Assembly (NCBI RefSeq): GCF_003952505.1
Contig: NZ_CP034450.1
Location: 5,415,001-5,479,000 of the forward strand
Length of the DNA: 64,000 nucleotides
DNA from: Mesorhizobium sp. M4B.F.Ca.ET.058.02.1.1
GTDB taxonomy: Bacteria; Pseudomonadota; Alphaproteobacteria; Rhizobiales; Rhizobiaceae
Reading direction: 5' to 3'
This document shows, piece by piece, positions 17,237 through 39,514 of the stretch. Position 1 is the first letter of the stretch; every line of letters begins with the position of its first letter. Both the position numbers and the translations under genes were made by a program. The notes under the pieces are model-generated. The model searched no databases, was not told the DNA's origin, and saw only the letters and a program-made list of their open reading frames with translations.

Positions 17237-17258
17237 CGTCCCGACTCCCTTAGTCGGC

Positions 17259-22560: not shown

Positions 22561-22596
22561 GCGGAACCGGCCACAAACCCGATCCAGGCAACGCGA

Positions 22597-22618: not shown

Positions 22619-22637
22619 CACCGAAGCGGCTTTTTCG

Positions 22638-23501: not shown

Positions 23502-24307
23502 TGCGCGCCTTCGTCGTTGCCGTCTTTGCCTTCCTCTACCTGCCGATCGCGCTGGTGGTGCTGTTCTCCTTCAACGCCGGCCACCATGCCAGCGAGTTCA
23601 CCGGCTTCTCGACGCAATGGTACGGCAAGACGCTGTCCAACCCGTTCCTGGTCGAGGCGCTGAAGAACAGCTTGTTCATCGCCACCACCAGCGCGCTTTT
23701 GGCGGCGGTCGCCGGCACCGCCGCCGCGCTCGGCCTGCAGCGCGTCGGGGCGCGGACACGAGCGGTCTTCGATGGGCTGCTGGGCGCGGCAATCGTCGTT
23801 CCGGGCGTCGTCATCGGCATCTCGACGCTGGTCGCGCTCGTGCAGCTGTTCGGCGTCGTCAATCCGTTCGTCGCCGAATTGTGGCCGGGCGACCAGCCGC
23901 CGCGCCTGGCACTCGGCTACGGCTCGATCATCGCCGCGCATGGCCTGTTCTCGATGGCGCTGGTGGCGATGATCGTCGGCACGCGCCTTGGCAGTCTCGA
24001 CCGCAACCTGGTCGAGGCGTCGAGCGATCTCTACGCCACGCCGCTGACGACGTTCCGCTCGATTGTGCTGCCGCAGATCATGCCGGCGGTGATCGCCGGC
24101 TTCCTGCTCGCATTCACCTTTTCGTTCGACGACTTCATCATCGCCTTCTTCGTCGCCGGCGCGCAGACGACGCTGCCGATCTATGTCTTCGCCTCGATCC
24201 GCCGCGGCGTGACGCCGGAAATCAACGCCGTCGCGACCATCGTGCTCGTCGCCTCGGTGCTGCTCGTGGTGCTTGCCCAGTGGCAGCTGCGCCGAAGAAA
24301 ACAGTGA
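23501..24307 (+). CDS. ABC importer permease, PotC-like (first system)
   Basis: A 268-residue permease with six hydrophobic segments and the EAA loop EASSDLYATPLTTFRSIVLP. FDDFIIAFFVAG and the closing RRGVTPEINAVATI are typical of PotC. It completes the importer encoded from 20280. Ten bases separate it from the SDR gene that follows. Confidence 0.92.
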   Translation: MRAFVVAVFAFLYLPIALVVLFSFNAGHHASEFTGFSTQWYGKTLSNPFLVEALKNSLFIATTSALLAAVAGTAAALGLQRVGARTRAVFDGLLGAAIVVPGVVIGISTLVALVQLFGVVNPFVAELWPGDQPPRLALGYGSIIAAHGLFSMALVAMIVGTRLGSLDRNLVEASSDLYATPLTTFRSIVLPQIMPAVIAGFLLAFTFSFDDFIIAFFVAGAQTTLPIYVFASIRRGVTPEINAVATIVLVASVLLVVLAQWQLRRRKQ

Positions 24308-24317
24308 AAGACCGATC

Positions 24318-25078
24318 ATGATCCTGAAAGACCGCATCGCCGTGGTGACCGGAGCCGGGTCCGGCATCGGGCGCGCCGGCGCCATGATCATGGGCAGGGA
24401 AGGGGCGACAGTGGTGATCGCCGACCGCGATCGGGCCGCCGGCGAGGCCGTTGCCTCCGACATCCGCGAAGCCGGCGGCCGCGCCGAAGCGGTCACGACC
24501 GACGTCGGCAACGACACCGCGGTCGAGGCGCTCATCGTCGGCACGCTCGGCAGGCATGGGCGGATCGACATATTGCACAACCATGCCGGCATCCAGGTCG
24601 GCGGCACGCTCACCGAAGTTGGCGTCGACGGCATGGATGCGTCGTGGCGGATCAATGTGCGGGCGCAGTTCGTTGGCGCCAAGATCGTGATGCCGGCGAT
24701 GATCGCGCAGGGCGGCGGCGTCATCCTCAACACCGCCTCGAATTCGGGGTCTTCTACGACCGCGAGATGATCGCCTATGCGACGTCGAAACATGCCGTGG
24801 TGGCGATGACCAGGCAGATGTCGCTCGACTACGCCCGCTACAATGTCCGCATCAACGCGCTTTGCCCGGGCTGGGTCGACACGCCGTTCAACGAGCCGTT
24901 CATCGCCCAGATGGGCGGGCGCGACGCGATCGAAAACTATGTCCGGACCAAGATCCCGATGGGGCGCTGGGCAAGCGCCGACGAGATCGCCGAAGCGATC
25001 CTGTTCCTCGTCTCCGACCGCTCCTCCTTCATGACCGGACAGGCGCTGGTGGTCGACGGTGGCGAAAGCATCGGCTGA
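24318..25078 (+). pseudogene. Short-chain dehydrogenase with a one-base frameshift
   Basis: The 5' frame encodes an SDR N-terminus (GAGSGIGRAG cofactor motif, NHAG, and VILNTASNSG). It then shifts at the GGGG run 24746-24749. A different frame continues with FYDREMIAYATSKHAVVAM, holding the catalytic Y and K, to a normal C-terminus (SSFMTGQALVVDGGESIG). Adding one G restores an SDR of about 253 residues with every motif intact. That, and two similar shifts elsewhere in this window, makes a sequencing error likelier than true decay. It follows the polyamine-type importer and may act on its substrate. Confidence 0.8.
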
Positions 25079-25101: not shown

Positions 25102-26610
25102 TTACACGTGCTTGCGGCCACCGGTGTCGCGAAACCAGCTGTCCGGGTAAGGGTACCACCAGCCCTGGATCTCGGGCTTGTGGTCGATGATCACCATCTT
25201 CGAGCGGCGGAAGGCGTCGAGCCCCTGGCGGCCGAGCTCGCGGCCGAGGCCGGAAGCCTTCCAGCCGCCGAAAGGCAGCGCGTCGTTGTCGATCAGCGGA
25301 TTGTTGACCCAGACCATGCCGGCCTCGAGCCGCTCGGCCGCCTCGTGCGCTTCGGCGAGGTCGGTGGTGAACACCGAGGCGCCGAGGCCGAAGGGACTAT
25401 CGTTGGCGAGCCTGATCGCCTCGTCGAAATCCTTCACGCGACAGATGGCGGCGACCGGCCCGAAACACTCCTCGCGCACGATCGCCATGTCCGGGGTGAC
25501 GCCGGTGAGGATCGTCGGCTCGTAGAACCAGCCGGTGTTGTGCGCCGGCGGAATGCACCCGCCGGTCACCGCCTTCGCGCCGTTGCGAACCGCGTCGTCG
25601 ACCAGACGCATCACCTTGGCCCGTGCGGCTTCGCTGACCAGCGGGCCGATCTCGGTCCTGTCCAGGCCGTTACCGATCCTCAGTGCGCGGGTCTTTGCGG
25701 CGAAGAGATCGACGAAGCGGTCGTGCACGGCATCGACGACGAAGAAGCGCTCGGCCGAGGTGCAGACCTGGCCGGTGAGGTGGAAGGCGGCGGTGACGGA
25801 GCCGGCCGCCGCGACGTCGAGTGGGGCGTGTTGCGAGATGATCAGCGGATCGCTGCCGCCGGCCTCGATGACGCAAGGCTTCATGCGCTCGGCGCACGCC
25901 ACCGCGACGGCCTTGCCGGCGGCAACCGAGCCGGTGAAGGCGACGGTATGGGTGCGGTCGGACCCGATCAGCGCCTGCGCCGTCGCAGCGCCGCCGGGCA
26001 GGCAGGAGACGAGGCCTTCGGGCAGTGAACGGAACACCGTCATGTAGTCGAGCGTCGACAATGTCGTCGCCTCGGCAGGCTTGATGACGCAGGCATTGCC
26101 GGCGGCGAGCGAGGCGGCCACCGTCCAGCACATCAGCAGGATCGGGAAGTTATAGGGCATGATGTGGACGGAGACGCCGTAGGGCTCGTAGCGCGCGTAC
26201 TGGAAGGAACCCGCCTGCGTCATGCCGGCGACCTTGCCGGCCTCGTCGCGCGCCATCTCGGCATAGTAGCGGAAGATCGGTGCGCAATTGGCGATCTCGC
26301 CAATCGCTTCCGGATAGGGCTTGCCCATCTCGCGCACCATCAGCTCGGCGCAGCGGGTGAAGTCCGCCGCCTCGATGGCATTGGCCACCGCGTGCAAATG
26401 TTTGGCGCGGCTCTTGGCGTCGAGTTTTTTCCATGCCGCCTGCGCTGCGGTCGCGGTGGTCAACGCGGCGTCGATCTCACCATCGCTGGCGGCGGCGATG
26501 GTGCCCACCGTTTCGAGCGTCGCCGGATCGATCACCGGCTTTTGCGCACCGGTCGTCGGCCGGTAGTCCGGATTGACGAAGTATACCGGACGGTCGGGCG
26601 AGAACTGCAT
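25102..26610 (-). CDS. NAD(P)-dependent aldehyde dehydrogenase
   Basis: A 502-residue ALDH that oxidises an aldehyde to the acid. Catalytic C283 (GQVCTSAERFF) and E249 (IEAGGSDP) are present, as are N154 (MPYNFP) and K177 (IKPAE) of the active site and cofactor pocket. It is probably the PuuC-equivalent step, acting on an aldehyde made by the PuuB-like oxidase at 36906, though the link is inference. It closes the leftward operon with cupins, glycosyltransferase and importer; GGGAGG precedes the ATG. Confidence 0.92.
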   Translation of the reverse strand: MQFSPDRPVYFVNPDYRPTTGAQKPVIDPATLETVGTIAAASDGEIDAALTTATAAQAAWKKLDAKSRAKHLHAVANAIEAADFTRCAELMVREMGKPYPEAIGEIANCAPIFRYYAEMARDEAGKVAGMTQAGSFQYARYEPYGVSVHIMPYNFPILLMCWTVAASLAAGNACVIKPAEATTLSTLDYMTVFRSLPEGLVSCLPGGAATAQALIGSDRTHTVAFTGSVAAGKAVAVACAERMKPCVIEAGGSDPLIISQHAPLDVAAAGSVTAAFHLTGQVCTSAERFFVVDAVHDRFVDLFAAKTRALRIGNGLDRTEIGPLVSEAARAKVMRLVDDAVRNGAKAVTGGCIPPAHNTGWFYEPTILTGVTPDMAIVREECFGPVAAICRVKDFDEAIRLANDSPFGLGASVFTTDLAEAHEAAERLEAGMVWVNNPLIDNDALPFGGWKASGLGRELGRQGLDAFRRSKMVIIDHKPEIQGWWYPYPDSWFRDTGGRKHV

Positions 26611-26631
26611 GGAATGATCCTCCCGGTCCGC

Positions 26632-26976
26632 TCAGCGGATCATGTAGACCTTCTTGATCGTCTCATGCACGGTGCAGACGCCCTTCCAGTCCTGCGGGAA
26701 GAACGCCGCCGTGTCGGGTTCGATCTCGATCACCTCGCCGGATTCATGCACATAGGTGCAGCGTCCCTCGAGGAAGTGGCAGAACTCGTCGCGGGTGACG
26801 TGGCAGTGCCATTTGCCCGGCGTGCAGATCCAGAGCCCGCATTCCGAGCGGCCTTCCGGCCCCTTGTAGAGGAGCTTGCCAGAGGTGTGGGACTGTCCCT
26901 CGATCATGGTCGGGATGACGCCCCAGTCGACGAGGTCGGTGATGGCGAGCGGCGATTGCATGGTCGGCGTGGTCAT
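26632..26976 (-). CDS. Cupin, first of three tandem copies
   Basis: A 114-residue single-domain cupin of the DUF861/EutQ-like kind. Key segments are LLYKGPEGRSECGLWICTPG, RDEFCHFLEGRCTYVHESG and AAFFPQDWKG. The central E-F-C-H motif supplies likely metal or substrate ligands. It is about half identical by eye to the next two genes on this strand, so the three come from tandem duplication. Function in this operon is unknown; binding of an amine or acid intermediate is possible. Confidence 0.85.
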   Translation of the reverse strand: MTTPTMQSPLAITDLVDWGVIPTMIEGQSHTSGKLLYKGPEGRSECGLWICTPGKWHCHVTRDEFCHFLEGRCTYVHESGEVIEIEPDTAAFFPQDWKGVCTVHETIKKVYMIR

Positions 26977-27004
26977 CGATTTTATCCTGGATTTCGTTGC
27001 GTGC

Positions 27005-27346
27005 TTACCGGCACATGAAGGCCTTGGTCAGCGTTTCTGTGATTTTAGAAGTGCCGGTCCAGCCGGCTGGGAAGAAGACCAGTGTCCCGGCCTCGACCGG
27101 GATCGTCTCGCCATTCTCGTGGATGTAGGTGCCGCGCCCCGACAGGAAATGGCAGAATTCGTCAACCGCGAAGGTGATGTGGCGCGTGCCGGGCGTGCAC
27201 GACCAAAGCCCGCATTCGCTCGATCCGTCCGCGTGCTGGAACAGGACCTTGCCCGACGCACGCGGCGAGCCGGCGATAGGGTCGGCGCCGGCACCCCAGT
27301 CGTCCAGTTGCACGGTCGAGGCCTTTGGCCAGTGCGGTGTCGGCAT
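27005..27346 (-). CDS. Cupin, second of three tandem copies
   Basis: A 113-residue paralogue of the neighbouring cupins with the same landmarks: VLFQHADGSSECGLWSCTPG, VDEFCHFLSGRGTYIHENG and LVFFPAGWTG. GAGGAA precedes the ATG at 27346. Gaps of 28 and 14 bases to its neighbours show a continuous operon. Confidence 0.85.
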   Translation of the reverse strand: MPTPHWPKASTVQLDDWGAGADPIAGSPRASGKVLFQHADGSSECGLWSCTPGTRHITFAVDEFCHFLSGRGTYIHENGETIPVEAGTLVFFPAGWTGTSKITETLTKAFMCR

Positions 27347-27360
27347 GTCGAGTTCCTCGG

Positions 27361-27712
27361 TTACGCCAGCATGTAGATGTTGCGCATGGTCTTATGCACG
27401 GTGCATTCGCCGCTCCAGCCGGCCGGGAACAGCACCACCGTCCCGGCTGTCACCTCTATCACCTCGCTGTCGTCGGATTTGTAGGTGGCGCGACCTGAGA
27501 CGAAGTGGCAGAGCTCGTCGCGCGGGATCTTGAGCCGCCAGCGTCCAGGCGTGCAGACCCAGATGCCAGATTCCGGCTGGTTGTTCGGACCCCTTGTGCA
27601 CCAGCCTGCCGGTCGAGTGCGAAGCGCCCTCCAGCGCGTCAGGCTGCGCGCCCCAGTCGACGAGATCGGCGCGGGTCGAGGCCTGGTGGAGGTGCGGCGC
27701 GGAGGAGGTCAC
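27361..27712 (-). pseudogene. Cupin, third tandem copy, with a one-base frameshift
   Basis: The GTG start at 27712 overlaps the glycosyltransferase stop as GTGA. The first 42 residues (ADLVDWGAQPDALEG, RLVHKG) match the sister cupins, then the frame shifts in the CCCC run 27590-27593. One fewer base restores GPNNQPESGIWVCTPGRW, RDELCHFVSGRATYKSDD and an end MRNIYMLA with TAA at 27361-27363. As the rest of the frame is intact, either a sequencing error or a very recent mutation fits. Intact length would be about 116 residues. Confidence 0.8.
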
Positions 27713-28983
27713 AGCAGCTGCTCCAGCAGCCCGGCAGCCTTCTCGGGGCCGTTCTGCGACTGCATCTGCGCCGATGCCCTGGCGAGCTTGGCCTTGATCG
27801 CCGGATCGGTGAGGCAGGCCTCGATCTTCGCGATCAGCTCGGCATCGCTCCAGTCATAGCGCGGCATGCCGAAGCCGCAGCCGATCTCGCCGACGCGGGT
27901 GGCATTGTCGTGACCGTCCCAGACATAGGGCATGATGATCGCCGGCTTGCCGAAATAGAGGCACTCGGTGAAGGAGTTGTTGCCGCCATGGTGGATCACC
28001 GCATCGACCTGCGGGATCACCGAAGGTTGCGGGAACCAGCTGTCGACAATGACGTTGCCGGGCACGTCGGTGTACTGGTCCTTGTAGCCGCCGACATTGA
28101 CCAGCGCCCGGTAGCGCGTCTTGCCGAGCGCCGCGATGATGCGCTTCAGGAGGTCGACGTCGCCGGCCCCCAGGCTGCCGAAGGAGACGTAGAGCAGCGG
28201 CCCGTCATTGTTCTTCGCAAAGGTCGGTATTGCGTAGGGCTTCTCCTGCCGCACGCAGCCCTCGAGATACTGGAATTTCGCCGGGTCGAGCGGATGCCGG
28301 CGGTTGAACTTCGCCGCCTGCGGATAGAGCAGCAGGTTGAGGTAGGGCGAGGCCTCGAAGAACTGGCCGATCGGATAGGGCGCCTCGCCATTGGCGGCGA
28401 GGAAGGCGTTGAAGTCGTCATGGATCGGCTTGATCACCGCGTTGAAATGGTCGCGGTAGCGCTTGTGGCCGGCGTGGTCGTCCTCGGCGCAGCCGGAAAG
28501 ATGCGGCGGGATGTCCTCGTCCTCGATCTCGTTTTCCGAGCAGGAGATGACCCGCACCCAGGGCTTGCCATACTGCTTGATAGCGGGAAACAGGATGACG
28601 TTGTCGACCGAGATGACGTCGGGCTTGATCTTCGCGAGCACCCCGGCCAGATCCTTCTGTGCCCATTTGGCGCTATCGACGATCGCCGTCCAGCAGTCCT
28701 TCACGTAGTTGTCGACCTGGTCGTAGGGCGACTTGCGGAAATTCGGGATGTGGCCGTTGATGAAGTCCTCCCAGAACTTGGCCATCTGCTCCGGCGGCAT
28801 CGGCTCGGAGAGGTTCACCGGGTGCGCCTCGAAGCCGTAGCCCTTGTAGACGTCGACAAATCCGGGGTCGGACAGGAACACCGCCCTGTGGCCGCGCGCC
28901 TCGACCGCCTGGGCGATGCCGACGGAATTGAGCGCCGGCCCGAAGGCCGCTTCCGGGAAAAACGCGATGGTCTTCTGCGCCAT
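27709..28983 (-). CDS. UDP-glycosyltransferase family protein, copy 1
   Basis: A 424-residue GT1-type (UGT/MGT fold) enzyme, which would move a sugar from a nucleotide donor to a small acceptor. The N-terminal domain opens KTIAFFPEAAFGPALNSVGI; the donor domain has LLYVSFGSLGAGD, the WFPQPSVIPQVDAVIHHGG nucleotide-binding block, NNSFTECLYFGKPAIIMP and DGHDNATR. ATG 28983 (MAQKTIAFF) has GGAG upstream; another ATG five codons earlier overlaps the importer ATPase stop. The close paralogue at 34230 lies in the opposite operon. Glycosyltransferases are unexpected in an amine-catabolism cluster, and neither donor nor acceptor can be predicted. Confidence 0.88.
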   Translation of the reverse strand: MAQKTIAFFPEAAFGPALNSVGIAQAVEARGHRAVFLSDPGFVDVYKGYGFEAHPVNLSEPMPPEQMAKFWEDFINGHIPNFRKSPYDQVDNYVKDCWTAIVDSAKWAQKDLAGVLAKIKPDVISVDNVILFPAIKQYGKPWVRVISCSENEIEDEDIPPHLSGCAEDDHAGHKRYRDHFNAVIKPIHDDFNAFLAANGEAPYPIGQFFEASPYLNLLLYPQAAKFNRRHPLDPAKFQYLEGCVRQEKPYAIPTFAKNNDGPLLYVSFGSLGAGDVDLLKRIIAALGKTRYRALVNVGGYKDQYTDVPGNVIVDSWFPQPSVIPQVDAVIHHGGNNSFTECLYFGKPAIIMPYVWDGHDNATRVGEIGCGFGMPRYDWSDAELIAKIEACLTDPAIKAKLARASAQMQSQNGPEKAAGLLEQLL

Positions 28984-28997
28984 GGTTTCAATCTCCA

Positions 28998-30071
28998 TCA
29001 ATCTGCGAAAATTCTGACATCGGCGGCGTCCCAGCCGAGCTCGATCCGGTCGCCGGCGGCAACCGGCCGGCGGTCGGCGGCATCGGCGGTGACGCGCACC
29101 AGGAACGGCTTTTGCGAAAGAGTGGTGCGGACATGCACCTGCAGGTCGAGACCCTGATAGGCGAGCGCCTCGACCGTGCCGGCAACGCGGTTGGCGGTGT
29201 CGGGCGACGGAAACAGCCGGATACGTTCGGGCCGCACAGCGGCGACAGCCGAGGCGCCCGACGAAAGTGTCGCCGAAACCTTACCGGTGATCTTCGTGCC
29301 ATTCGTCGCCTGGACGCCGTTGCCGTCAGCACGACCGGGAACAAAATTCATCACGCCGATAAAGTCGGCGACGAAGCGGTCGGAAGGATGTTCGTAGATC
29401 GCGTGCGGCGTATCGCATTGCAACAGCCTGCCATCCTTCAGCACCGCCATGCGGTCGGCCATGACCAGCGATTCCTCCTGGTCGTGGGTGACGATGACGA
29501 AGGTGATGCCGACCTCGTGCTGCAGGCGCTTCAATTCGAGCTGCATGGCGCCGCGCAGCTTTTTGTCGAGCGCGCCGAGCGGCTCGTCGAGCAACAGCAG
29601 GCGCGGCCGCTTGACCAAGGCCCGGGCGAGCGCGACGCGCTGCTTCTGGCCGCCCGACAATTGCTCAGGCTTGCGATCGGCGAAGGGCACCAGCTCGGTG
29701 GTCGCCAGGATGGCGTCGACACGGCTGCGGATTTCGGCCGCCGGTAGGCGCTCCATTTCGAGCCCATAGGAGACATTGGCCCTGACGCTCATATGCGGAA
29801 ACAGCGCGTAGGACTGGAACATCAGATTGACCGGCCGCTTGTTGGGCGGCGTGCGGGCGATATCGCGCCCGTCGAGCAGGATCTGGCCGTCGCTCGGCGT
29901 CTCGAAGCCGGCCAGCATGCGCAACAGCGTGGTCTTGCCGCAGCCGGAGGGGCCGAGCAGGGCGAAGAATTCGTTCTCGCGGATGTCGAGCGAAATGCCG
30001 TCGACGGCTCTCACGCGGCCGAAATTCTTCGACACGCGATCGATCCGAAGCAGCGTGCGCGGTTCGCTCAT
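28998..30071 (-). CDS. ABC importer ATPase, spermidine/putrescine type (second system)
   Basis: A 357-residue PotA-like ATPase with Walker A GPSGCGKTT at residues 40-48, MFQSYALFPHM, signature LSGGQKQR, Walker B LLLLDEPLGALD and IVTHDQEES. A TOBE domain fills the C-terminal third. The start at 30071 overlaps the permease stop as ATGA; reading further upstream only translates the permease gene out of frame. It belongs to the second Pot-type importer of the window. Confidence 0.92.
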   Translation of the reverse strand: MSEPRTLLRIDRVSKNFGRVRAVDGISLDIRENEFFALLGPSGCGKTTLLRMLAGFETPSDGQILLDGRDIARTPPNKRPVNLMFQSYALFPHMSVRANVSYGLEMERLPAAEIRSRVDAILATTELVPFADRKPEQLSGGQKQRVALARALVKRPRLLLLDEPLGALDKKLRGAMQLELKRLQHEVGITFVIVTHDQEESLVMADRMAVLKDGRLLQCDTPHAIYEHPSDRFVADFIGVMNFVPGRADGNGVQATNGTKITGKVSATLSSGASAVAAVRPERIRLFPSPDTANRVAGTVEALAYQGLDLQVHVRTTLSQKPFLVRVTADAADRRPVAAGDRIELGWDAADVRIFAD

Positions 30072-30859
30072 TGGCCGATAACCCCACGATTGAGCCGCTG
30101 CGAAAGGGTCAGCGCGGTGATCGAAACCGCCATGACGATGGTCGCCAGCGCGTTGATCTCCGGCGTGATGCCGAAGCGGATCATCGAATAGATCTGCATC
30201 GGCAGCGTGGTCGAGGCGCGGCCGGCGCCGGCGGTGAAGAAGGCGATGATGAACTCGTCCACCGAGAGCGTGAAGGCGAGCAGCGCGCCGGCGACGACCG
30301 CCGGCAGGATGACCGGCAGCGTCACCCGCCGGAAGGTGGTGAGCGCGGAGGCGCCGAGATCGGCGGAGGCCTCGACGATCGACCAGTCGAAGCTCTTCAG
30401 CCGCGCGCGCACTACCGAGCAGACGAAGGCAAGGTTGAAGACGACATGGGCGAGGACGATGGTGTGTAGGCCCATGGTGACATCGAGCAGCGAGAAGAAC
30501 GACAGCAGCGCGATGGCGAGCACGATGTCTGGAATGATCATCGGCGCGAAGATCAGTGCTTCCAGACCCTTTCCGTATTGCCGGCGCATCTCGATGCCGA
30601 TCGCCAGCAGCGTGCCGAGCAGCGTGGCGATGGCGGTCGAGACCAGCGCCACGATCAGCGTGTTGAGGGCAGCCTGCAGGATCGCCGCATTGCCGGCGAG
30701 CGAAGCGTACCATTTCAGCGAGAAGCCCGACCATGCCGTCGGCAGCCCGCCGGCGTTGAAGGAGAGCGCCACCAGGACGGCGATCGGGATGTAGAGGAAG
30801 GCGAAGACCAGGACGAGGATCGTCCGCAAGCCGAGGGTGCGGGCAGGCGACGAAGTCAT
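30068..30859 (-). CDS. ABC importer permease, PotC-like (second system)
   Basis: A 263-residue inner-membrane permease with six hydrophobic segments, the EAA loop EASADLGASALTTFRRVTLP and the closing RFGITPEINALATIVMAV. CGGAGGGC precedes the ATG at 30859. A palindromic repeat of about 180 bases separates it from the PotB-like gene upstream, so the operon is interrupted by a mobile-type repeat but probably still co-transcribed. Confidence 0.92.
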   Translation of the reverse strand: MTSSPARTLGLRTILVLVFAFLYIPIAVLVALSFNAGGLPTAWSGFSLKWYASLAGNAAILQAALNTLIVALVSTAIATLLGTLLAIGIEMRRQYGKGLEALIFAPMIIPDIVLAIALLSFFSLLDVTMGLHTIVLAHVVFNLAFVCSVVRARLKSFDWSIVEASADLGASALTTFRRVTLPVILPAVVAGALLAFTLSVDEFIIAFFTAGAGRASTTLPMQIYSMIRFGITPEINALATIVMAVSITALTLSQRLNRGVIGQ

Positions 30860-30901
30860 GGCTGCCCTCCGATGGTCAGGAGGCGAGCGGTCGTACAGCC
30901 T

Positions 30902-31027
30902 CCTTCTCCCCATTCACGGGGAGAAGATGTTGGCAGGCAGATGAGGGGCAACGCTGAGCGTCGCAAAGGCTGGCGCCGCCCCTCATCCGCCCTTCGGGGC
31001 ACCTTCTCCCCGTGAACGGGGAGAAGG
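30902..31027. repeat. Interspersed palindromic repeat between permease genes
   Basis: Two hairpins, CTTCTCCCC-attcac-GGGGAGAAG (30903-30926) and CCTTCTCCCC-gtgaac-GGGGAGAAGG (31002-31027), flank a core holding GATGAGGGG and CCCCTCATC segments. Closely related hairpins occur at 45778-45927, and both share parts with elements at 40113 and 42387. The look is that of rhizobial intergenic mosaic-type repeats. It fills most of the 182-base gap. Confidence 0.75.
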
Positions 31028-31041
31028 AAGCAAGGGAGCGC

Positions 31042-31965
31042 TCAGCCATCGGCACCTCCCTCAGCTTCCTTGGCTCGGCCGGCGGCGCGGTCGGCAAGCA
31101 GGGCCTGCGCCATCAGGACCGCGAGCATGATGGCGATCAGCGCCATGGCGAGGGCGGCGCCAAACGGCCAGTCATTGGCGGTCAGGAACTGGTCGTAGAC
31201 CAGGTTGCCGATCATCTGGAAGCGGCCGCCGCCGAGCAGAGCGGGGGTGACGAAATTGCCGATCGACAGCACGAAGACGAAGACCGCGCCGGCGGCGATG
31301 CCGGGCACCGTCAGGGGCAGGATGACGCGGCGAAAGGTGGTCAGCGCCGAGGCGCCGAGGTCGCGCGAAGCCTCGGCGAGTTCCGGATTGAGCCGCGACA
31401 GCGGCGCGTAACAGGCGAGGATGACGAAGGGCAGGTAGTTGTAGACCAGGCCGGCGATGACGGCGCCCTCGGTGTAGAGCATCGACGGCGGCTCGCCCGT
31501 GTAGCCCATCCAGCGCAGCAACTGGGTGACGAGGCCCTCGCGGTTGAGGAGCACGATCCAGGCATAGGTGCGGATCAGATAGTTCGACCAGAACGGCAGC
31601 ACGGCGAAGAACAGAAATACCGGCTGCAGCCGGCGTGGCGCCGCGGCAATCGCATAGGCAGCGGCGTAGCCGATGATGACCGCGATCAGTGTCGCGGCGC
31701 CGGCGATGCGCGCCGAGTTGAGGAAGATGCCGGCATAGAGCGGGTCGAGGACCTGGCCGAAATTCTCCAGCGTGAAAGTGTATTCGATCCCGCCATAGAT
31801 GCCGCGCCGGAAGAAGGCGAGCGCAAGCACCAGCGCGCATGGCACGACCATGAGCGCGGTCAGCCAGGCCAAAGCCGGCGCCATCAGCAGGTTGGAGCGA
31901 AGTCTGGTCTGGGACAATTTTCGATACCGCTCAGCGGCCGACGGCGGCAGCCCGCCATCGGCCAT
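31042..31965 (-). CDS. ABC importer permease, PotB-like (second system)
   Basis: A 307-residue permease with a cytoplasmic N-terminal tail and six or so hydrophobic segments, the loop EASRDLGASALTTFRRVILP and FVTPALLGGGRFQMIGNLVY, typical of PotB. It is 20 bases downstream of the binding-protein gene and pairs with the PotC-like protein after the repeat. Confidence 0.92.
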   Translation of the reverse strand: MADGGLPPSAAERYRKLSQTRLRSNLLMAPALAWLTALMVVPCALVLALAFFRRGIYGGIEYTFTLENFGQVLDPLYAGIFLNSARIAGAATLIAVIIGYAAAYAIAAAPRRLQPVFLFFAVLPFWSNYLIRTYAWIVLLNREGLVTQLLRWMGYTGEPPSMLYTEGAVIAGLVYNYLPFVILACYAPLSRLNPELAEASRDLGASALTTFRRVILPLTVPGIAAGAVFVFVLSIGNFVTPALLGGGRFQMIGNLVYDQFLTANDWPFGAALAMALIAIMLAVLMAQALLADRAAGRAKEAEGGADG

Positions 31966-31985
31966 TGTCTCTGGGCTGCAAGCGC

Positions 31986-33047
31986 CTACTGCGCGGCCTT
32001 GATCTCGCTAACGATCTTGGAGTAGTCGCGCTGGGCGTCGCCGACGTCGCGCAACTGCTCGAACTTGACGAGGTCGGCCACCGGCATCGCCATGTTGGGG
32101 AACTTGGCCAGGAAGTCGGCCGGCAGGCTCTCCATCGCCGGCTTGTTCGGCACCTTGTAGTCGATGTTCTGCGCCGCCCAGGCGTGGTTCTTGGCGTCGA
32201 GCATGAAGTTGATGAACTTGAAGGCGGCGTCCTTGTGCTCGGAAGCCTTCATCACCACCATCGTGTCGACCCAGAGGTCCGAGCCTTCCTTCGGAATGAC
32301 GTATTTGATCTCGGGCTTCTCGGCGATGCCGTAGTTGCACCAGCCGTCCCAGGCCTGCACCAGCAGCGCCTCGCCGGACACCAGCTTCGAATAGAAGGTG
32401 GTGTCGTCATAGGCGAGGAGGGTCTTCTTGGCCGAGATCAGCAGGTCCTTGACCTCGGCCATCTTGGCCGGGTCGGTCTCGTTGACGGAGAAACCCTTGT
32501 CGAGCTGGCCCGCGGCCAGCAGCCAGCGGTCGGTGGCCAGCATGGTGGTCTTGCCCTTGAGATCGTCGGAAGGCGCGAGCAGGTCGCTCCAGCTTGTCGG
32601 CGCCGTCTTGATCAGGTCCGAACGATAGCAGAGGCCGGTCGTGCCCCAGGTGTAGGGCACCGAGAAGGCGTTGCCGACATCGTGCGGCAGCTTGGTCGCT
32701 TCCGGATAGAGATTGGCGAGGTTGGGGACCTGGGCATGGTCGATCGGCTCGGTCAGGCCGAGCTTGTTCAGCACCTCGGCGAAGGGCGAGGAGACGAAGA
32801 CCACGTCATAGCCCTTGCCGCCGGAGGCGACGAGCTTGCCCATGATCTCCTCATTGGTGGCGTGGACCACGACCTCGCCGGCAACACCGGTCGCGGTCTT
32901 GAAGGCGGCCATGGCGTCGGGCGCCATATAGCCGTCCCAGTTGGAGATGACGAGGTCGGCGGCGGCCGCCGGCGCCGAAAGCGTCAGAGCGAAGCCGAGC
33001 GCGATTGAAGACGTTCTGAACGAACGGTGCTGCAGGGCGGTGGTCAT
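31986..33047 (-). CDS. Extracellular substrate-binding protein, PotD-like (second system)
   Basis: A 353-residue periplasmic protein with a Sec signal (MTTALQHRSFRTSSIALGFA... cleaved near APAAAA). Mature segments LVISNWDGYMAPDAMAAFKT, VVFVSSPFAEVLNKLGLTEP and PYTWGTTGLCYRSDL fit the polyamine-binding class. It leads the leftward operon that ends with the aldehyde dehydrogenase, so the imported compound is presumably the catabolic substrate. GGGAG lies before the ATG. Confidence 0.92.
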   Translation of the reverse strand: MTTALQHRSFRTSSIALGFALTLSAPAAAADLVISNWDGYMAPDAMAAFKTATGVAGEVVVHATNEEIMGKLVASGGKGYDVVFVSSPFAEVLNKLGLTEPIDHAQVPNLANLYPEATKLPHDVGNAFSVPYTWGTTGLCYRSDLIKTAPTSWSDLLAPSDDLKGKTTMLATDRWLLAAGQLDKGFSVNETDPAKMAEVKDLLISAKKTLLAYDDTTFYSKLVSGEALLVQAWDGWCNYGIAEKPEIKYVIPKEGSDLWVDTMVVMKASEHKDAAFKFINFMLDAKNHAWAAQNIDYKVPNKPAMESLPADFLAKFPNMAMPVADLVKFEQLRDVGDAQRDYSKIVSEIKAAQ

Positions 33048-33153
33048 GGCAGTCTCCCATTACGGTTGATGGTCAAATTCATTGGCAGACCGGCATTCGC
33101 GGTTCCCGCCACGGGCTCGATCCTGTTCCCCGGTCTTTTGTTGCCGATTGCAG

Positions 33154-33184
33154 TGACAGTACTATTGCAGAAAAAAGTACGTCA
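33154..33184. promoter_or_regulatory. Imperfect inverted repeat in the divergent gap
   Basis: TGACAGTAC and GTACGTCA form an imperfect inverted repeat around an A-rich centre, in the 232-base gap between the binding-protein gene and the GntR gene. ATTGCAG also occurs twice here (33148-33154, 33164-33170). It is a candidate operator for the double-HTH regulator. Confidence 0.3.
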
Positions 33185-33279
33185 ATCCATAATTTGGCGG
33201 GCGGCTCCGGAATCTGGCCGATTGCCTCGGCGGGGACGATCGGCCAAACCGGGGTCGCACCGATCCACGAGAACAAGTC

Positions 33280-34218
33280 ATGCAAGCGGCAGCCAGGCGA
33301 CCTCGCACCAACCATCTCGATCTTGCGCAGCGCATCCTGGACGTTGCCAGGCAGCGCGGCTTCGCGCCCGGCGCGCACCTTCCCGAGCAACAGATCGCCT
33401 CGCTCTGCAGCGTTTCGCGGACTCCGGTGCGGGCGGCGCTGCGCCTGCTCACCGAACAGGGCGTGGTGCGCTGGGAAGCCGCCACAGGCTACCGCCTTGC
33501 CATCGACCTCGCGGCGCAAGGGGCTGTCGCCGCCGAATTGCCGAATACGGAGGAAGACGAACTGGCCGAGGCGATCCTGCGCGACCGCTCGGCGCGGCGG
33601 CTGGACCAGACGGTGACCGTCAGCGGGCTGATGCGGCGCTACGATGCTGAACGCAAGACGGTACTAAAAGCGCTTCAGAGACTGACGGAAGAGAATCTCG
33701 TCGACCGCGCGCCGGGCCAATCCTGGCTGTTTCGCCGGGCGCCCGACGATCCCGAGGCGCAGGGCGAGAGCTACGACTTCCGGCTGTTGCTGGAGCCCGC
33801 CGCCATATTGACGCCGGGCTTCAGCCTCGACGGCGCGCGGGCGGCGGCGCTGCGCCAGGGCATGGAGGCGCTGATGGCGCAGCCCGATGCGGCCTTCGAC
33901 ACCAGGGAATTCCAACGGCTGGACATCGAGTTCCACGGCATGATCGCCGACGGCTCGGCCAACCGGTTCGTCACCGACGCGCTGTCCGATCATCTCCGGT
34001 TGCGCCGGCTGCCTGGCATCTATGCGGGCGTCAACGTGTTCCGGCTCAAGCAGTCGCTGCGCGAGCACCTCACCATACTCGACCATCTGGAAAGCCGGCA
34101 GTATGAGGTTGCCGCTGATCTGCTGCGTGTGCATCTGAGGCTGTCGCGCAGCCAGCGGCCGCGGGCGGCGAGCCGCGGCGCGCCGGCGCTGTTCGGCATG
34201 ATCAGCCGGCCGGATTGA
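33280..34218 (+). CDS. GntR-type regulator with two winged-helix domains
   Basis: A 312-residue regulator. Residues about 14-70 form a first GntR winged helix (LPEQQIASLCSVSRTPVRAA). Residues about 90-150 look like a second one (LMRRYDAERKTVLKALQRL with TEENLVDR). The last 150 residues are helical with FHGMIADGSANRF, like an FCD domain. Two DNA-binding domains in one chain are uncommon for the family and would let one dimer hold four half-sites. It lies between the two divergent amine operons and is the likely controller of both. Confidence 0.8.
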   Translation: MQAAARRPRTNHLDLAQRILDVARQRGFAPGAHLPEQQIASLCSVSRTPVRAALRLLTEQGVVRWEAATGYRLAIDLAAQGAVAAELPNTEEDELAEAILRDRSARRLDQTVTVSGLMRRYDAERKTVLKALQRLTEENLVDRAPGQSWLFRRAPDDPEAQGESYDFRLLLEPAAILTPGFSLDGARAAALRQGMEALMAQPDAAFDTREFQRLDIEFHGMIADGSANRFVTDALSDHLRLRRLPGIYAGVNVFRLKQSLREHLTILDHLESRQYEVAADLLRVHLRLSRSQRPRAASRGAPALFGMISRPD

Positions 34219-34229
34219 CCGAGGACATC

Positions 34230-35513
34230 GTGACGCGCAAAGCCAGCCCGACCATCGCGCTGTTTCCCGAAGCGAGCTTCGGCGCGGCGCTCAATTGCGT
34301 CGGCATCGCGCAGGCCTTGCGAGCCAGGGGCGCCCGGCCGGTCTTCATCTGCCATGCCGGCTTTTCCGGCGTCTTCGCCGATTACGGCTTTCAGGAATAC
34401 CAGCTGCCGACCGACGATCCGCTGAGCGACAGCGAGCGGCAGAGCTACTGGCAGGCCTTCGTGCGCCGCCACCTGCCGCATTTCCGGCTGAGCCCGCTCG
34501 ACCAGCTCGAAACCTATGTCGCGCCGACATGGCAGGCAATCGTCGACACGGCGGCCCACGCCGAGGCGCCGCTCAGGCAATTGCTGGCGCGGCTGAAGCC
34601 CGACGCCGTCGTCCTCGACAATGTCATCATGTTTCCGGCGATCGCCGGCGCCGGCTGCCCGTGGGTGCGCGTCGTCTCATGCGCCGAGACGGAATTGCCC
34701 GACGCCAAGGTGCCGCCCTATCTTTCCGGCCTTGCCGCCGACGACCCTGGGCGCGCCGCCTTCGAGGCGCGCTACCTCGCGGCGGTCGCCCCGGCGCATG
34801 AGCGGTTCAACCGGCTGCGCGCCAATGCAGGTCTCGCGCCGCTGCCGAAGGGCCTGTTCCTGGAGACTTCGCCCGATCTCAACCTGCTGCTGACACCGGC
34901 CATCGTGCGCCGCGAACGCGCGGCGCCGCTCGACCCCGTGCGCTTCACCTATCTTGAGGGCTGCGTCCGCTCCGAGGGGCCGTTCGAGGTGCCGGTCTTT
35001 CCGCGCAACAGCGGGCCACTGGTCTATCTCAGCTTCGGCAGCCTTGGTGCCATGGATGTCGGGCTGATCCAGCGCATGCTGGCGGTGTTCGACAGGCTGC
35101 CCGCCCGCTTCATCGTCAATGTCGGCGGCCTGCGCGACGCCTATCGCGCGGTGCCGGACAATGTCTATCTCGGCGCCTGGTTCCCGCAGCCCTCGGTGGT
35201 GGCGAAATCGGATCTCTTCATCCATCACGGCGGCAACAATAGTTTTTGCGAGGCGCTGCGCTTCGGCGTGCCGTCGCTGATCATGCCCTATTGCTGGGAC
35301 GGACACGACAATGCGCGGCGCGCCGAGGAGACCGGCGTCGGCAACCATATCGGCCGTGATGGCTGGACCGAAGGAGTACTGGAGCGAGCGATCCTCGGCC
35401 TGTTGGCCGACGATGCGATGCGCGCCCGCCTGAAGGACAATGCAGCGCAGATGGCGCTGAAGCCCGGAACGGATGTGGCCGCCGAAGCGATCCTCTCTTT
35501 GATACGGATGTGA
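34230..35513 (+). CDS. UDP-glycosyltransferase family protein, copy 2
   Basis: A 427-residue paralogue of the glycosyltransferase at 27709. Matching landmarks are TIALFPEASFGAALNCVGIA, PLVYLSFGSLGAMD, WFPQPSVVAKSDLFIHHGG, NNSFCEALRFGVPSLIMP and DGHDNARR. The GTG at 34230 has GAGGACATC before it; a TTG that overlaps the regulator stop is a weaker choice. It is followed after four bases by the glutamine-synthetase-like gene, so glycosyl transfer and gamma-glutamylation are co-expressed. Confidence 0.88.
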   Translation: MTRKASPTIALFPEASFGAALNCVGIAQALRARGARPVFICHAGFSGVFADYGFQEYQLPTDDPLSDSERQSYWQAFVRRHLPHFRLSPLDQLETYVAPTWQAIVDTAAHAEAPLRQLLARLKPDAVVLDNVIMFPAIAGAGCPWVRVVSCAETELPDAKVPPYLSGLAADDPGRAAFEARYLAAVAPAHERFNRLRANAGLAPLPKGLFLETSPDLNLLLTPAIVRRERAAPLDPVRFTYLEGCVRSEGPFEVPVFPRNSGPLVYLSFGSLGAMDVGLIQRMLAVFDRLPARFIVNVGGLRDAYRAVPDNVYLGAWFPQPSVVAKSDLFIHHGGNNSFCEALRFGVPSLIMPYCWDGHDNARRAEETGVGNHIGRDGWTEGVLERAILGLLADDAMRARLKDNAAQMALKPGTDVAAEAILSLIRM

Positions 35514-35517
35514 CCAA

Positions 35518-36903
35518 ATGCCTGAAAACCACCTGACGACCCTGCCGCCGACGAGCGGCGCCAACGACCCGAAAAGCTGGCTGGCCGCGCACGCGATCAG
35601 CGAAGTCGAATGCCTGGTGCCCGACATGAACGGCGTGCTGCGCGGCAAGGCGCTGCCGGCGGCGAAGTTCCTGAAGGCGCTGGAAGACCGCGCGCTCTAT
35701 CTGCCGAGCAGCGCCTTCCTGGTCAGCATTGACGGCCGCTATTCCGGCTCGATCGACGAAGGCTTCGCCTATTCGGACCCGGACATGCGCATGGTGCCGG
35801 ATGTCTCGACACTTTGCCTGGCGCCCGGCGGCGGGCCCGGCAAGGCCTATGTCTTTGCCGATGCCTTCCACATGGACGACCGTCCATGGATGGCCTCGCC
35901 GCGTCACGTCTTGCGGGCGGTGCTCGATCTCTATCGCCAGCGCGGCTGGCGGGCGGTGGTGGCGCCGGAGCTCGAATTCTATCTCACCGCGCCAAATCCC
36001 GATCCGGACCAGCCGCTGACCGCCCCGGCCGGGCGCAACGGCCGCGCCGAAAGCGTGCAGCATCCTTATGACATGGCGGCGCTGGAGGAGTTCGAGCCGG
36101 TGATCCAGCGCATCTACGCGCATGCGGCGGCCGCGGGGTTGCCGCTCGATACGCTGATCCATGAGTCGGGCACGGCGCAATTGGAGATCAACTTCCTGCA
36201 CGGCGATGCGCTGGCGCTGGCCGACAAGGTGCTGTTGTTCAAGCGCCTGACCAGGCAGGCGGCTCAGGCGAGCGGCATGCACGCCACCTTCATGGCCAAG
36301 CCGATCGCGGCGCAGGCCGGCTCCTCGATGCATCTGCACATGTCCATTGTCGACGAGGCTGGCAACACGCTGTTTGCCGGCGGCGACGATGCCGACACCG
36401 CGATGTTCGGCCACTTCATCGGCGGCTTGCAGAGATATGTTCCGGAAATCATGCCGCTGTTTGCGCCGAACGTGAATTCGTACCGGCGCATTCGTCCTAA
36501 CCACAGCGCGCCGGCCAATATCGAATGGTCGCACGACAACCGCTCCTGCGGCCTGCGCGTGCCGGCCGGCGGCCGCGCCGCGCGGCGGGTGGAGAACCGG
36601 CTGCCGGGAGCCGACGCCAATCCCTATCTGGCGATCGCCGGCTCGCTGCTCGCGGGCTATCTCGGCGTGGAGGAGAAGATCGCGCGCTCGGCGGAAGCGT
36701 CTGGCAATGCCTACAAGATCAAGAGCACGCTGCCGAAGACCATGGAGGAGGCGCTCGACCGCTTCACCGCCTGCGCTCCCGTGCGGGCGCTGCTCGGCGA
36801 GGATTTCTTCCAGACCTATCTGCGCGTCAAGAGCGTCGAGCTCGACCTGTTCCAGAGCGTGGTGACGTCCTGGGAACGCGACCACCTTTTGCTCAAGGTG
36901 TGA
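35518..36903 (+). CDS. Glutamine synthetase family ligase, gamma-glutamylamine type
   Basis: A 461-residue GSI-fold ligase, likely joining glutamate to an amine (PuuA-like first step). Visible landmarks: VPDMNGVLRGKALP, APELEFYLT, HESGTAQLEINFLHGDAL, HLHMSIVDEAG, NSYRRIRPNHSAP, and the VPAGGRAARRVENRLPGADA / NPYL block. It lies two bases ahead of a PuuB-like oxidase, the enzyme that acts next in the Puu route, which supports the reading. It is distinct from the copy at 5390. Confidence 0.9.
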   Translation: MPENHLTTLPPTSGANDPKSWLAAHAISEVECLVPDMNGVLRGKALPAAKFLKALEDRALYLPSSAFLVSIDGRYSGSIDEGFAYSDPDMRMVPDVSTLCLAPGGGPGKAYVFADAFHMDDRPWMASPRHVLRAVLDLYRQRGWRAVVAPELEFYLTAPNPDPDQPLTAPAGRNGRAESVQHPYDMAALEEFEPVIQRIYAHAAAAGLPLDTLIHESGTAQLEINFLHGDALALADKVLLFKRLTRQAAQASGMHATFMAKPIAAQAGSSMHLHMSIVDEAGNTLFAGGDDADTAMFGHFIGGLQRYVPEIMPLFAPNVNSYRRIRPNHSAPANIEWSHDNRSCGLRVPAGGRAARRVENRLPGADANPYLAIAGSLLAGYLGVEEKIARSAEASGNAYKIKSTLPKTMEEALDRFTACAPVRALLGEDFFQTYLRVKSVELDLFQSVVTSWERDHLLLKV

Positions 36904-36905
36904 CC

Positions 36906-38207
36906 ATGGTTTCCAGTTCGACGGGTTTCAATTCCGGTCTCGGTATCGGCAAATCCTACTATGTCGCCACCGCCCATCCGGCGCCGGATCATCCGGCGCT
37001 CATCGACGATGCCGAAGCCGACCTTGTGGTCGTCGGCGGCGGCTGCACCGGACTGTCGGCGGCGCTCCACGCCGCCCAACGCGGGCTGAAGGTTGTGCTG
37101 CTCGAAGGCGGCAGGATCGGCTGGGGCGCATCGGGCCGCAATGGCGGCCAGATGATCCCAGGCCTGCGCAAGGGCGCCAAGGGCCTGGTCAAGGCCTTCG
37201 GGCCGGAACGGGCGAAGGCGCTGTTCGACCTCGCTTTCGAGGCGCGCGGGCTGGTGCTCGACATCATCGAGCGCAATGGCATCGACTGCGACCTCAGGCT
37301 CGGCGGCCATCTGGTCGGCGCGGTGAACAGCTCCGACCTCAAGGATCTTGAAGATGAGGCCGAGTGCCTGGCCAGCGTGATGAATTTCCGCGACGTCGAG
37401 ATCCTGTCGGCGGCGGAAGCGCGCGGCAAGGTCGACACGCCCTATCACGGCGCCATGTACGAGCCGCTCGGCGGCCATATGCATCCGCTGAACTACACGC
37501 TGGGGCTTGCCCGCGCGGCGGTCGCGGCCGGCGTCACCATCCACGAGAATTCGGTCGCCGTGCGGCTGGAGCGGGAGCCTTCGATCAAGGTCTCGACGGC
37601 AAAGGGATCTGTGCGGGCGAAACATGTCGTGCTGGCCGGCGACGCGTTGCTGCAAGGACTGGAGCCGCGCGTCAACAGTCGCATCATGCCGGTCGGCAAC
37701 TACATCGTCGCCACCGAGCCGCTGGAGGGCAAGCGCAATGTCATCCCGGCCAATGTCGCGGTGTCGGACACGCGCTTCGTGGTTAACTACTACCGGATGT
37801 CGGCGGATGGGCGCCTGTTGTTCGGCGGCGGCGAACGCTACACGCCGTCGCCGCCGGCCGACATCGCCGGCTTCGTGCGGCCGCACATGGAACAGACCTT
37901 CCCGCAACTGAAGGGCTGCCGCATCGACCATGCCTGGGGCGGGCTGGTGTCGGTGACGACGTCACGCCTGCCGCATGTCGGGCACTATGGCGAGGTCTAT
38001 TTCGCGCATGGCTATTCCGGCAAGGGCGTCATCCTGTCGACACTGTCCGGCAAACTGCTGGCCGAGGCGATCACCGGCGATTCCGCGCGGCTCGACCTGT
38101 TCTCGACGCTTAGCCCGCTGCCGTTCCCGGGCGGCACGGCGCTGCGCGGTCCGCTCTATGTGCTCGGCATGCTGTGGTATGCGATGCGCGACCGCATCAA
38201 GCACTGA
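36906..38207 (+). CDS. FAD-dependent oxidoreductase, gamma-glutamylputrescine oxidase-like
   Basis: A 433-residue DAO-family flavoprotein similar to PuuB, which oxidises the gamma-glutamylated amine to an aldehyde with release of ammonia and hydrogen peroxide. The dinucleotide motif is VVVGGGCTGLSAALHA (GxGxxG at residues 44-49, E67 for the ribose). GASGRNGGQ follows, typical of the family. The C-terminus keeps HVGHYGEVYFAHGYSGKGV. Probable pathway order is importer, ligase (35518), this oxidase, aldehyde dehydrogenase (25102). Confidence 0.9.
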   Translation: MVSSSTGFNSGLGIGKSYYVATAHPAPDHPALIDDAEADLVVVGGGCTGLSAALHAAQRGLKVVLLEGGRIGWGASGRNGGQMIPGLRKGAKGLVKAFGPERAKALFDLAFEARGLVLDIIERNGIDCDLRLGGHLVGAVNSSDLKDLEDEAECLASVMNFRDVEILSAAEARGKVDTPYHGAMYEPLGGHMHPLNYTLGLARAAVAAGVTIHENSVAVRLEREPSIKVSTAKGSVRAKHVVLAGDALLQGLEPRVNSRIMPVGNYIVATEPLEGKRNVIPANVAVSDTRFVVNYYRMSADGRLLFGGGERYTPSPPADIAGFVRPHMEQTFPQLKGCRIDHAWGGLVSVTTSRLPHVGHYGEVYFAHGYSGKGVILSTLSGKLLAEAITGDSARLDLFSTLSPLPFPGGTALRGPLYVLGMLWYAMRDRIKH

Positions 38208-38231: not shown

Positions 38232-38738
38232 CTAACCGGCATCCCTGTTGGTAAGCGCGATGTGGCAGCAGCCGGAACCGTGGCCCGGCGTCCAGGTGAC
38301 GTTTTCGAAGCGCACGCCGGTCGCCTCGAACAGGCCGCGGTCGAAGGCGCCGGCGATGCGGCAGAGCGTGGCGAGCTTCTCCTCGCCGACGCCGGCCTCG
38401 ACCCAGGCGTCCTTCAGCGGGCAGCGCCTTACCTTGAAGGCGATGTGGGTCGCGTCGCGCTCGACATCGGTCGGGTACATGCGGCCGCCATCGGGGCTGA
38501 CGGCCAGAAACGCCTCGCCGATCGCCGGCGCGTCGTTGGGTCCGAAATCAGCGAAAGCCGCGGCCGCGACTTCCCTGCCGCGCTGCTCGATGGTGCGGAT
38601 CATGACCGCCTCGGCCCTTTCGGCGCCGAGTTCCGCGGTCAGTTCATCGAGGAAGAGGCGGTAGAGATCGGCCCGGTTGCGGAAAGCGGAATCGAGCTCG
38701 CGCGACAGTTTTTCGGCTCTGGTTTCTGGGTCGGTCAT
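38232..38738 (-). CDS. L-2-amino-thiazoline-4-carboxylate (ATC) hydrolase family protein
   Basis: A 168-residue protein resembling ATC hydrolases, which open aminothiazoline carboxylate on the way to cysteine. The family-like segments are KVRRCPLKDAW (about residues 101-111), LCRIAGAFDRG and the C-terminal GSGCCHIAL with adjacent Cys residues. It is the last gene of an oligopeptide-type importer operon and its start overlaps the ATPase stop as ATGA, so the imported solute may be a thiazoline or related cyclic amide. The family call is from motif memory. Confidence 0.72.
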   Translation of the reverse strand: MTDPETRAEKLSRELDSAFRNRADLYRLFLDELTAELGAERAEAVMIRTIEQRGREVAAAAFADFGPNDAPAIGEAFLAVSPDGGRMYPTDVERDATHIAFKVRRCPLKDAWVEAGVGEEKLATLCRIAGAFDRGLFEATGVRFENVTWTPGHGSGCCHIALTNRDAG

Positions 38739-39514
38739 GGTGTTGCGGTCCTGTTCAGTTTCGGCGTTGCCGCCACAAGCGCCTTGCCGATCGCCGATTG
38801 CGGGTTGCCGATGACGGCCCGCGCCTCGCCGCTCTCGGCGACCCGTCCGGCATCGAGGATGACGAGGCGGTGGGCGACGGCGCGGACGACGCCGAGATCG
38901 TGCGAAATGAAAAGGTAGGCGATCCGTTCCTCGCGCTGCAGGTCAAGCAGCAGGTCCAGGATCTGACCGCGCACCGATACGTCGAGCGCCGACACGGCCT
39001 CATCGAGCACGATCAGCGACGGTCTGGTGGCGATGGCGCGGGCAATGGCGACGCGCTGGCGCTGGCCGCCGGAGATCTCGTGGATGGCGCGCGGCGCGAG
39101 ATCGGCGCCAAGGCCAACCCGTTCCAGCAGGGCGGCGATGCGGCGCGGGCGTTCGGTGCGCGAGGCGATGCCGTGGATACGCAAGGGGTCGTCCAGCACG
39201 CGCGCCACCGTGGCGCGCGGATTGAAGGCGGCGAGCGGATCCTGGAACACCATCTGCAGCCGCGCTCGCCTGGCGCGCAGGGCCGCTCCGCCCAGCGAGA
39301 GGAAGTCTGCGCCCTCGAACCGGATGGTGCCGGCGTCCGGCTCGATCAGCCTGAGCACCAGCCGGGCGATGGTCGACTTGCCGCTGCCGGACGGGCCGGC
39401 AAGCGCCAGCGTCTCGCCGGGCCCGATCGCCAAGGAGACGCCATCGACGGCGGAGACGGTTCTGCCGCCGCGGCGATAGTGCTTGGTGAGACCGGAGACG
39501 GTGAGCAGGCTCAT
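38735..39514 (-). CDS. ABC importer ATPase, DppF/OppF-like
   Basis: A 259-residue peptide-type ATPase with Walker A GPSGSGKST, the Q-loop MVFQDPLAAFNPR, signature ISGGQRQR, Walker B LIVLDEAVSALD and FISHDLGVV. It lacks the C-terminal extension of many OppF proteins. It pairs with the ATPase encoded upstream; start and stop codons overlap by four bases on both sides. Confidence 0.92.
   Translation of the reverse strand: MSLLTVSGLTKHYRRGGRTVSAVDGVSLAIGPGETLALAGPSGSGKSTIARLVLRLIEPDAGTIRFEGADFLSLGGAALRARRARLQMVFQDPLAAFNPRATVARVLDDPLRIHGIASRTERPRRIAALLERVGLGADLAPRAIHEISGGQRQRVAIARAIATRPSLIVLDEAVSALDVSVRGQILDLLLDLQREERIAYLFISHDLGVVRAVAHRLVILDAGRVAESGEARAVIGNPQSAIGKALVAATPKLNRTATP

Follow-up and report, generated by a model that had tools for sequence, protein, structure and literature searches.

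What are two glycosyltransferases (GTs) doing in a gene cluster that otherwise has the look of an amine uptake and oxidation system? The question is raised by a locus of Mesorhizobium sp. M4B.F.Ca.ET.058.02.1.1, found in a stretch of 64,000 nucleotides (hereafter the window), positions 5,415,001-5,479,000 of a genome of 6.46 Mb in a single contig. The open reading frames (ORFs) of the window form two divergent operons. On the minus strand the order is PotD-like binding protein, PotB, PotC, PotA, the glycosyltransferase GT-A (27709-28983), three cupins and an aldehyde dehydrogenase (ALDH), and on the plus strand a GntR regulator is followed by a second glycosyltransferase, GT-B (34215-35513), a ligase of the glutamine synthetase (GS) family that may be a gamma-glutamyl ligase, and an oxidase of the DAO family. 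An original prediction, made from this sequence, had read the locus as a route for a glycosylated amine, with ligase, oxidase and ALDH acting as in the Puu polyamine pathway. What we have found is that the conserved core of the cluster consists of the glycosyltransferases and not of the Puu-type genes.

We have compared 110 loci, 80 from one genome collection, 26 from other genomes and 4 from annotated plasmids. These are best hits, the closest of them being from Mesorhizobium, and because this genus is heavily over-represented the lineage groups were counted apart. No pair of the 110 loci had more than 90% of 25-mers in common, and none of the 11 Pseudomonas loci (a label that rests partly on 97% identity to a protein with the name P. 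multiresinivorans) had more than 30% in common with another. Genes were counted at identity cut-offs of 45% for Pot, 40% for GS and 50% for ALDH, which hide more distant genes such as the transporter genes near L136, L138 and L140; the totals include the ALDH of L137 (a 111-base fragment) and the GS of L040 (a 156-base remnant), and L150 (genome G051) was left out of the 110. The gene set is common to soil and marine bacteria and to some haloarchaea, from Mesorhizobium to Pseudomonas and haloarchaeal plasmids. A cupin comes directly after a GT in 102 of the 110 loci, and seven of the eight misses end no more than 420 bases past the GT. The cluster-type ALDH was found downstream in 94 of the 99 loci with room for it, i.e., in 37/37 loci with a GT-A at least 90% identical to ours, 38/38 other close alphaproteobacteria, 11/11 Pseudomonas, 4/4 of a further alphaproteobacterial genus, 2/2 haloarchaea and 2/7 distant loci (one of them the L137 fragment). 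The Natrialba ALDH is 53-63% identical to those of the ten bacterial loci listed. Each Pot gene precedes the GT in 89 of the 97 loci in which there was room for it. At the 45% cut-off the two haloarchaea have none, although in Natronorubrum permeases and a binding protein of the spermidine/putrescine type are annotated, starting ca. 6 kb downstream of the GT. Where there was room upstream, GntR was found in 82/92 loci and two GTs in 83/92. Because it recurs across so many genomes, the arrangement is far beyond chance, and the GTs are, as had been proposed, an integral part of a cluster of amine type with its Pot importer and ALDH.

A few loci depart from this plan. The eighth locus lacking a cupin after the GT is L162, from a genome of the Pseudomonas class, in which a gene for an aldehyde:ferredoxin oxidoreductase (4151-5857; Pfam AFOR_N and AFOR_C) lies just upstream on the same strand and no ALDH was found at the locus. 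An AstE/AspA-type deacylase gene adjoins the GT there, and another aldehyde:ferredoxin oxidoreductase gene (2260-4107) is located near the GT of L152. Two GTs of the family accompany a single cupin in L144 and L145. In the latter, a GcvT-type protein, with GcvT and trimethylamine N-oxide demethylase as its best models, is encoded between cupin and ALDH, a position that hints at an N-methylated substrate.

The two GTs of the window are 48% identical, and no other member of their subfamily was found in the genome. They are paralogues, one per operon, as predicted, and belong to one discrete GT1-like subfamily, within which GT-B sits in a clade of its own (a comparison made with the 58 of 164 sequences left after thinning). 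For the count of residues 24 of 179 places were dropped, one a fragment and 23 of them GT-B matches whose extension ended at once; these 23 were read separately afterwards and their residues agree. The catalytic His of the first loop, at the position that aligns with the catalytic His of UGT203A2 and OleI, is replaced in all 180 members (Pro in 99/157, Ala in 58/157 and Ala in the 23 more), the GT-B of the window carrying Ala. A Glu near the lost His (E12) is invariant in the same 180. The dyad Asp (D128) is kept in 157/157 and 23/23, and the nucleotide-binding motif HGGNNSF..E (H333-G-G-N-N-S-F plus E341) in 157/157, with T for S in the haloarchaeal members. The D/E-Q pair, which is the donor-sugar contact, reads DG in 157/157 and in a further 22/22 that could be read, while actinobacterial relatives retain DQ. 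The comparison with GT1 structures that had been suggested therefore holds for some features and not for others. Like enzymes of the MGT/OleD/OleI type and UGT203A2 and UGT202A2 of Tetranychus, the subfamily has a GT1-type fold (the predicted one that is also called GT-B), the nucleotide motif and the dyad Asp; unlike them, it has lost the catalytic His, carries DG for D/E-Q and an invariant Glu12, and is encoded in a transport and oxidation operon.

These losses could be taken to mean that the proteins no longer transfer sugar and are GT-fold relics acting as ligand sensors or as partners of GntR, cupin or transporter. The catalytic His and the donor Gln are both gone, and the GT-B gene overlaps by 4 bases that of the GntR/FCD regulator (33280-34218, plus strand; Pfam GntR and FCD). 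The latter appears to head the plus-strand operon; the divergent operons that had been predicted are real, the position of GntR apart from both of them probably is not. In addition, 92 loci have the regulator, and in 91 of them it is followed by a GT; the exception, L061, is cut by its contig end. We nevertheless regard a purely sensory role as very unlikely, given that the dyad Asp and the nucleotide motif are invariant and that the sugar-salvage genes described below would be left unexplained.

A protective role has also to be weighed, in which the GTs would conjugate a toxic aldehyde, phenol or amine by-product, the way UDP-glycosyltransferases (UGTs) act on xenobiotics, and would not be steps of the route at all. 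The closest solved GTs to GT-A are the spider-mite enzymes UGT203A2 (190 bits) and UGT202A2 (112 bits; PDB 7lvy and 6pnt), the next one scoring 70 bits, and UGT202A2 was crystallised with flavonoids. Macrolide-GT models also match. Since mite UGTs are thought to be bacterial in origin and are the closest solved relatives, our clade may lie near the lineage that donated them. Human UGT1A4 and UGT2B10, which N-glucuronidate amines, do not conserve this His either (PMC5075577, PMC8781437), and these are detoxifying enzymes; this one-residue loss is all that they have in common with the cluster GTs. Against protection, the relatives of GT-A are 78-92% identical among the matches listed and the gene order that they share with importer, cupin and ALDH is fixed. 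This would fit one particular substrate better than broad detoxification and makes by-product conjugation rather improbable in our view.

Kinase genes in other lineages give the best indication that sugar moves through the route and is used again. In all 11 Pseudomonas loci, and in L045 (a Hyphomicrobiales metagenome-assembled genome, 52%), an AmgK-like kinase is encoded between cupin and ALDH. It has the APH fold and a valid APH Pfam match, and its best model is that of AmgK, the N-acetylmuramate/N-acetylglucosamine kinase, at 243.4 bits; unlike AmgK proper, it remains below the equivalog cut-off of 500 and is placed in a GT cluster. AmgK phosphorylates the anomeric position. Both haloarchaeal loci have instead, after the ALDH, a ROK kinase (best model glucokinase, closest solved relatives glucokinases) and a phosphohexomutase (best model archaeal GlmM), which are 74 and 82% identical, respectively, between the two genera. 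If they act like their relatives, both sets could convert free sugar to sugar-1-phosphate, from which a nucleotide-sugar donor for a GT is made, and it is for this reason that we read them as signs of passage and reuse. The sugar step of the proposed glycosylated-amine route thus gains from salvage genes lying in or next to the operon in other lineages; its gamma-glutamyl link to Puu has no support in the form proposed, as shown below.

Free-sugar kinases within the cluster would also suit a degradative scheme. Here a sugar-conjugated amine would be imported and cleaved by the GT-fold protein together with the cupin, giving free sugar for the kinases and amine for the ALDH branch. The lost transfer base, the lost Gln of D/E-Q and the invariant loop Glu are in line with it. 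However, a plain hydrolase would not need the nucleotide motif that is invariant in 157/157 members, and with either kinase set the end product can be sugar-1-phosphate, as used for donors. We consider cleavage of an imported conjugate unlikely.

The resemblance to the Puu pathway (PuuA-PuuB-PuuC-PuuD) is real at the level of families, since the Mesorhizobium locus joins Pot-type import, a GS-family ligase (35518-36903, plus strand; Pfam Gln-synt_C 350.8 bits), a PuuB/AmaA-like oxidase of the DAO family that would use FAD (36906-38207, plus strand; Pfam DAO 254 bits) and an ALDH. For ligase and ALDH it does not extend to the curated models. The ligase scores too low for each of the four NCBIfam models that it matched (GGputSyn, i.e., PuuA, 187.8 bits vs. 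650) and the ALDH scores 244.2 bits vs. 850 with PuuC, its best NCBIfam row being BADH (379.3 vs. 668.6). The best row for the oxidase is L-pipecolate oxidase (194 vs. 600 needed), with no PuuB model among the best 25 of its 48 NCBIfam matches. A search of the whole genome for PuuD (PF07722) gave four matches, none in the window. The best PuuD-like gene, at 3,752,359 (247 bits), is 1.7 Mb away and 11 kb from another GS, and because the two are found together there the 3.74-3.75 Mb region is a likelier place for a standard Puu route. By curated scores the cluster would not be such a route, and this part of the original prediction is not supported as it stands.

The distribution of ligase and oxidase leads to the same separation. 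Among the 43 loci with a GT-A at least 90% identical, of which L017 is cut by its contig end, 41 have the GS and 40 the window-type oxidase, so that the expected pairing of GT with GS and PuuB-like oxidase does exist in the closest relatives. It fails beyond them: 40 other close alphaproteobacterial loci have GS in three cases and the window-type oxidase in none, and neither was found in the 11 Pseudomonas loci. In those three (L044, L048 and L049) a GS of 65-68% identity lies at a different position, directly after the ALDH, so the ligase either entered the cluster on more than one occasion or changed its place. One genus has in 4/4 loci a different DAO protein (31-33%) after the ALDH and an XRE-cupin regulator, which we take to be PuuR-like by its architecture, and no GS. 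The ligase was present in 100 of 119 Mesorhizobium genomes and the GT family in 64. In 63 of these 64 the GS lies within 300 bases of GT-B, and 37 of the 55 genomes with no GT match still hold that GS. Four of the 63 (G051, G1243, G1255 and G1258) keep an intact GS next to what is left of a GT, a fragment of 264-405 bases; here the GT genes are disappearing and the ligase persists. A single in-frame TGA was seen in the GT-A match of two further Mesorhizobium genomes, G1330 and G1332. These counts show each gene without the other, hence GS can exist without GTs and GTs without GS, and ligase and oxidase are mostly a Mesorhizobium attachment.

It could still be argued that the whole locus is an ordinary gamma-glutamyl putrescine route with unrelated GTs as passengers. 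GS and DAO do come directly after GT-B, and Natrialba has GS (a family member of 35% identity, 7 kb away), oxidases, an amidotransferase and an aminotransferase within 9 kb of its GT. Moreover, the Haloferax GlnA-2 is a glutamate-putrescine ligase whose activity has been shown (PMC8394153). We find this highly improbable, as the GTs are among the most conserved parts of the cluster and GS and DAO the least, most loci outside Mesorhizobium lack ligase and window-type oxidase, the core is made of two GTs and cupins, and the best PuuD-like gene is accompanied by another GS elsewhere in the genome.

What we tentatively favour, with less than even confidence, is an amine uptake and oxidation route with transient glycosylation by a GT1 subfamily devoid of its catalytic base, the sugar being recycled. 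A Pot-type ATP-binding cassette (ABC) importer would bring in a cationic amine, and GT-A, probably also GT-B, would use a nucleotide sugar to glycosylate a nitrogen atom, either in the amine or in a product. The oxidase or another enzyme would then generate an aldehyde, to be oxidised, judging from its family, by the cluster ALDH. The conjugate would subsequently be cleaved, perhaps with the help of the cupins, and the freed sugar would be returned to sugar-1-phosphate for donor synthesis by the AmgK-like kinase in Pseudomonas or by ROK kinase and phosphohexomutase in haloarchaea. In Mesorhizobium the attached ligase and oxidase may handle the same amine by gamma-glutamylation. A more specific version, a catabolic route of bacteria and haloarchaea with the sugar as recyclable protecting group (N-glycosylation, oxidation, release by cupin, return by kinase), is possible but doubtful; in it N-glycosylation would take the role that gamma-glutamylation has in the Puu route.

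Several points weigh against this interpretation. The evidence consists of gene content, conservation, residue changes and a predicted fold, and substrate, donor, product, activity and order of steps are proposed from these. With DG in the place of D/E-Q the proteins may use a different donor or may have lost sugar binding, and the loss of His does not by itself favour catabolism because the human His-less UGTs are detoxifying enzymes. Sugar-salvage genes are found in few loci (AmgK-like 12/99, ROK plus mutase 2/110); in the others salvage would fall to genes outside the cluster. Distant members keep GT and cupin without close Pot genes (0/6) and mostly without ALDH (2/7), and sugar release by the cupin is a guess. 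A literature search by titles and abstract openings, with most subscription journals outside its reach, gave no paper joining this GT family with amine catabolism.

The gene content and coordinates predicted for both operons were confirmed from ORFs and from Pfam and NCBIfam matches. On the minus strand, the PotD-like periplasmic binding protein (31986-33047) has spermidine/putrescine-type binders as best solved relatives (E 3.4e-43) and scores below the equivalog cut-offs of PotD (127.8, 582 needed) and PotF (114.3, 636 needed). It is followed by the ORFs of a PotB-type (31042-31965) and a PotC-type permease (30068-30859, start inferred, with an in-frame ATG also at 30913) and by a PotA-type ATPase (28998 to ca. 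30071, start inferred), which passes the potA model TIGR01187 (376.1 bits, cut-off 355.6). Of the three cupins predicted after GT-A only two are intact, the middle copy (27005-27346; 61 bits) and the most conserved one (26632-26976), with Cupin_3 scores of 61 and 63.5 bits over a cut-off of 23.5. They share fold and Pfam family with EutQ-like/DUF861 cupins (3bcw), and differ from them in sequence divergence, tandem copies and a fixed GT partner. The copy adjoining GT-A (27367-27712) is split into two overlapping matches in different frames, one of them without Pfam match; its reading frame is open in close relatives, among them the closest, L003 (GT-A 98% identical). The ALDH (25102-26610), of a type specific to the cluster, matches Pfam Aldedh with 492 bits. 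A scan of the divergent intergenic region for promoters and terminators found none.

Next to the cluster, at 21280-25078, lie the genes of another Pot-type transporter, whose binding protein is 29% identical, and behind them a short-chain dehydrogenase gene (24273-25078) that is also split, into two Pfam pieces in different frames; split cupin and split dehydrogenase are either pseudogenes or sequencing errors. Among the 43 closest loci, 19 have PotB and PotC genes similar to those of this transporter beside the cluster. The window also encodes another GS-family ligase (5390-6745), 33% identical to that of the cluster, and at 12218-18386 a BMP/PnrA-type binding protein together with an ABC ATPase and a pair of isochorismatase-type hydrolases, which may form a route for nucleobases or ureides. 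On the other side of the cluster are an ATC-hydrolase-family protein adjoining genes that resemble a peptide-type ABC transporter (38232-42328) and a UPF0261 protein with both N- and C-terminal Pfam domains (47239-48435).

Biosynthesis and detoxification are the main settings in which GT1 enzymes are known. If the route outlined here is true, the fold would be put to a new use in a conserved transport and oxidation operon centred on GT1 proteins without the catalytic base, and this operon would, given the parallel with UGT1A4 and UGT2B10, be a tractable system for His-independent N-glycosylation. The problem for which the Puu route employs glutamate would have a second solution in a sugar that is recycled as protecting group. 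The names seen for the family are generic (glycosyltransferase, MGT family, UDP:flavonoid glycosyltransferase), at least 571 relatives of these GTs are encoded in one genome collection, and a proven function would therefore give meaning to hundreds of genes.

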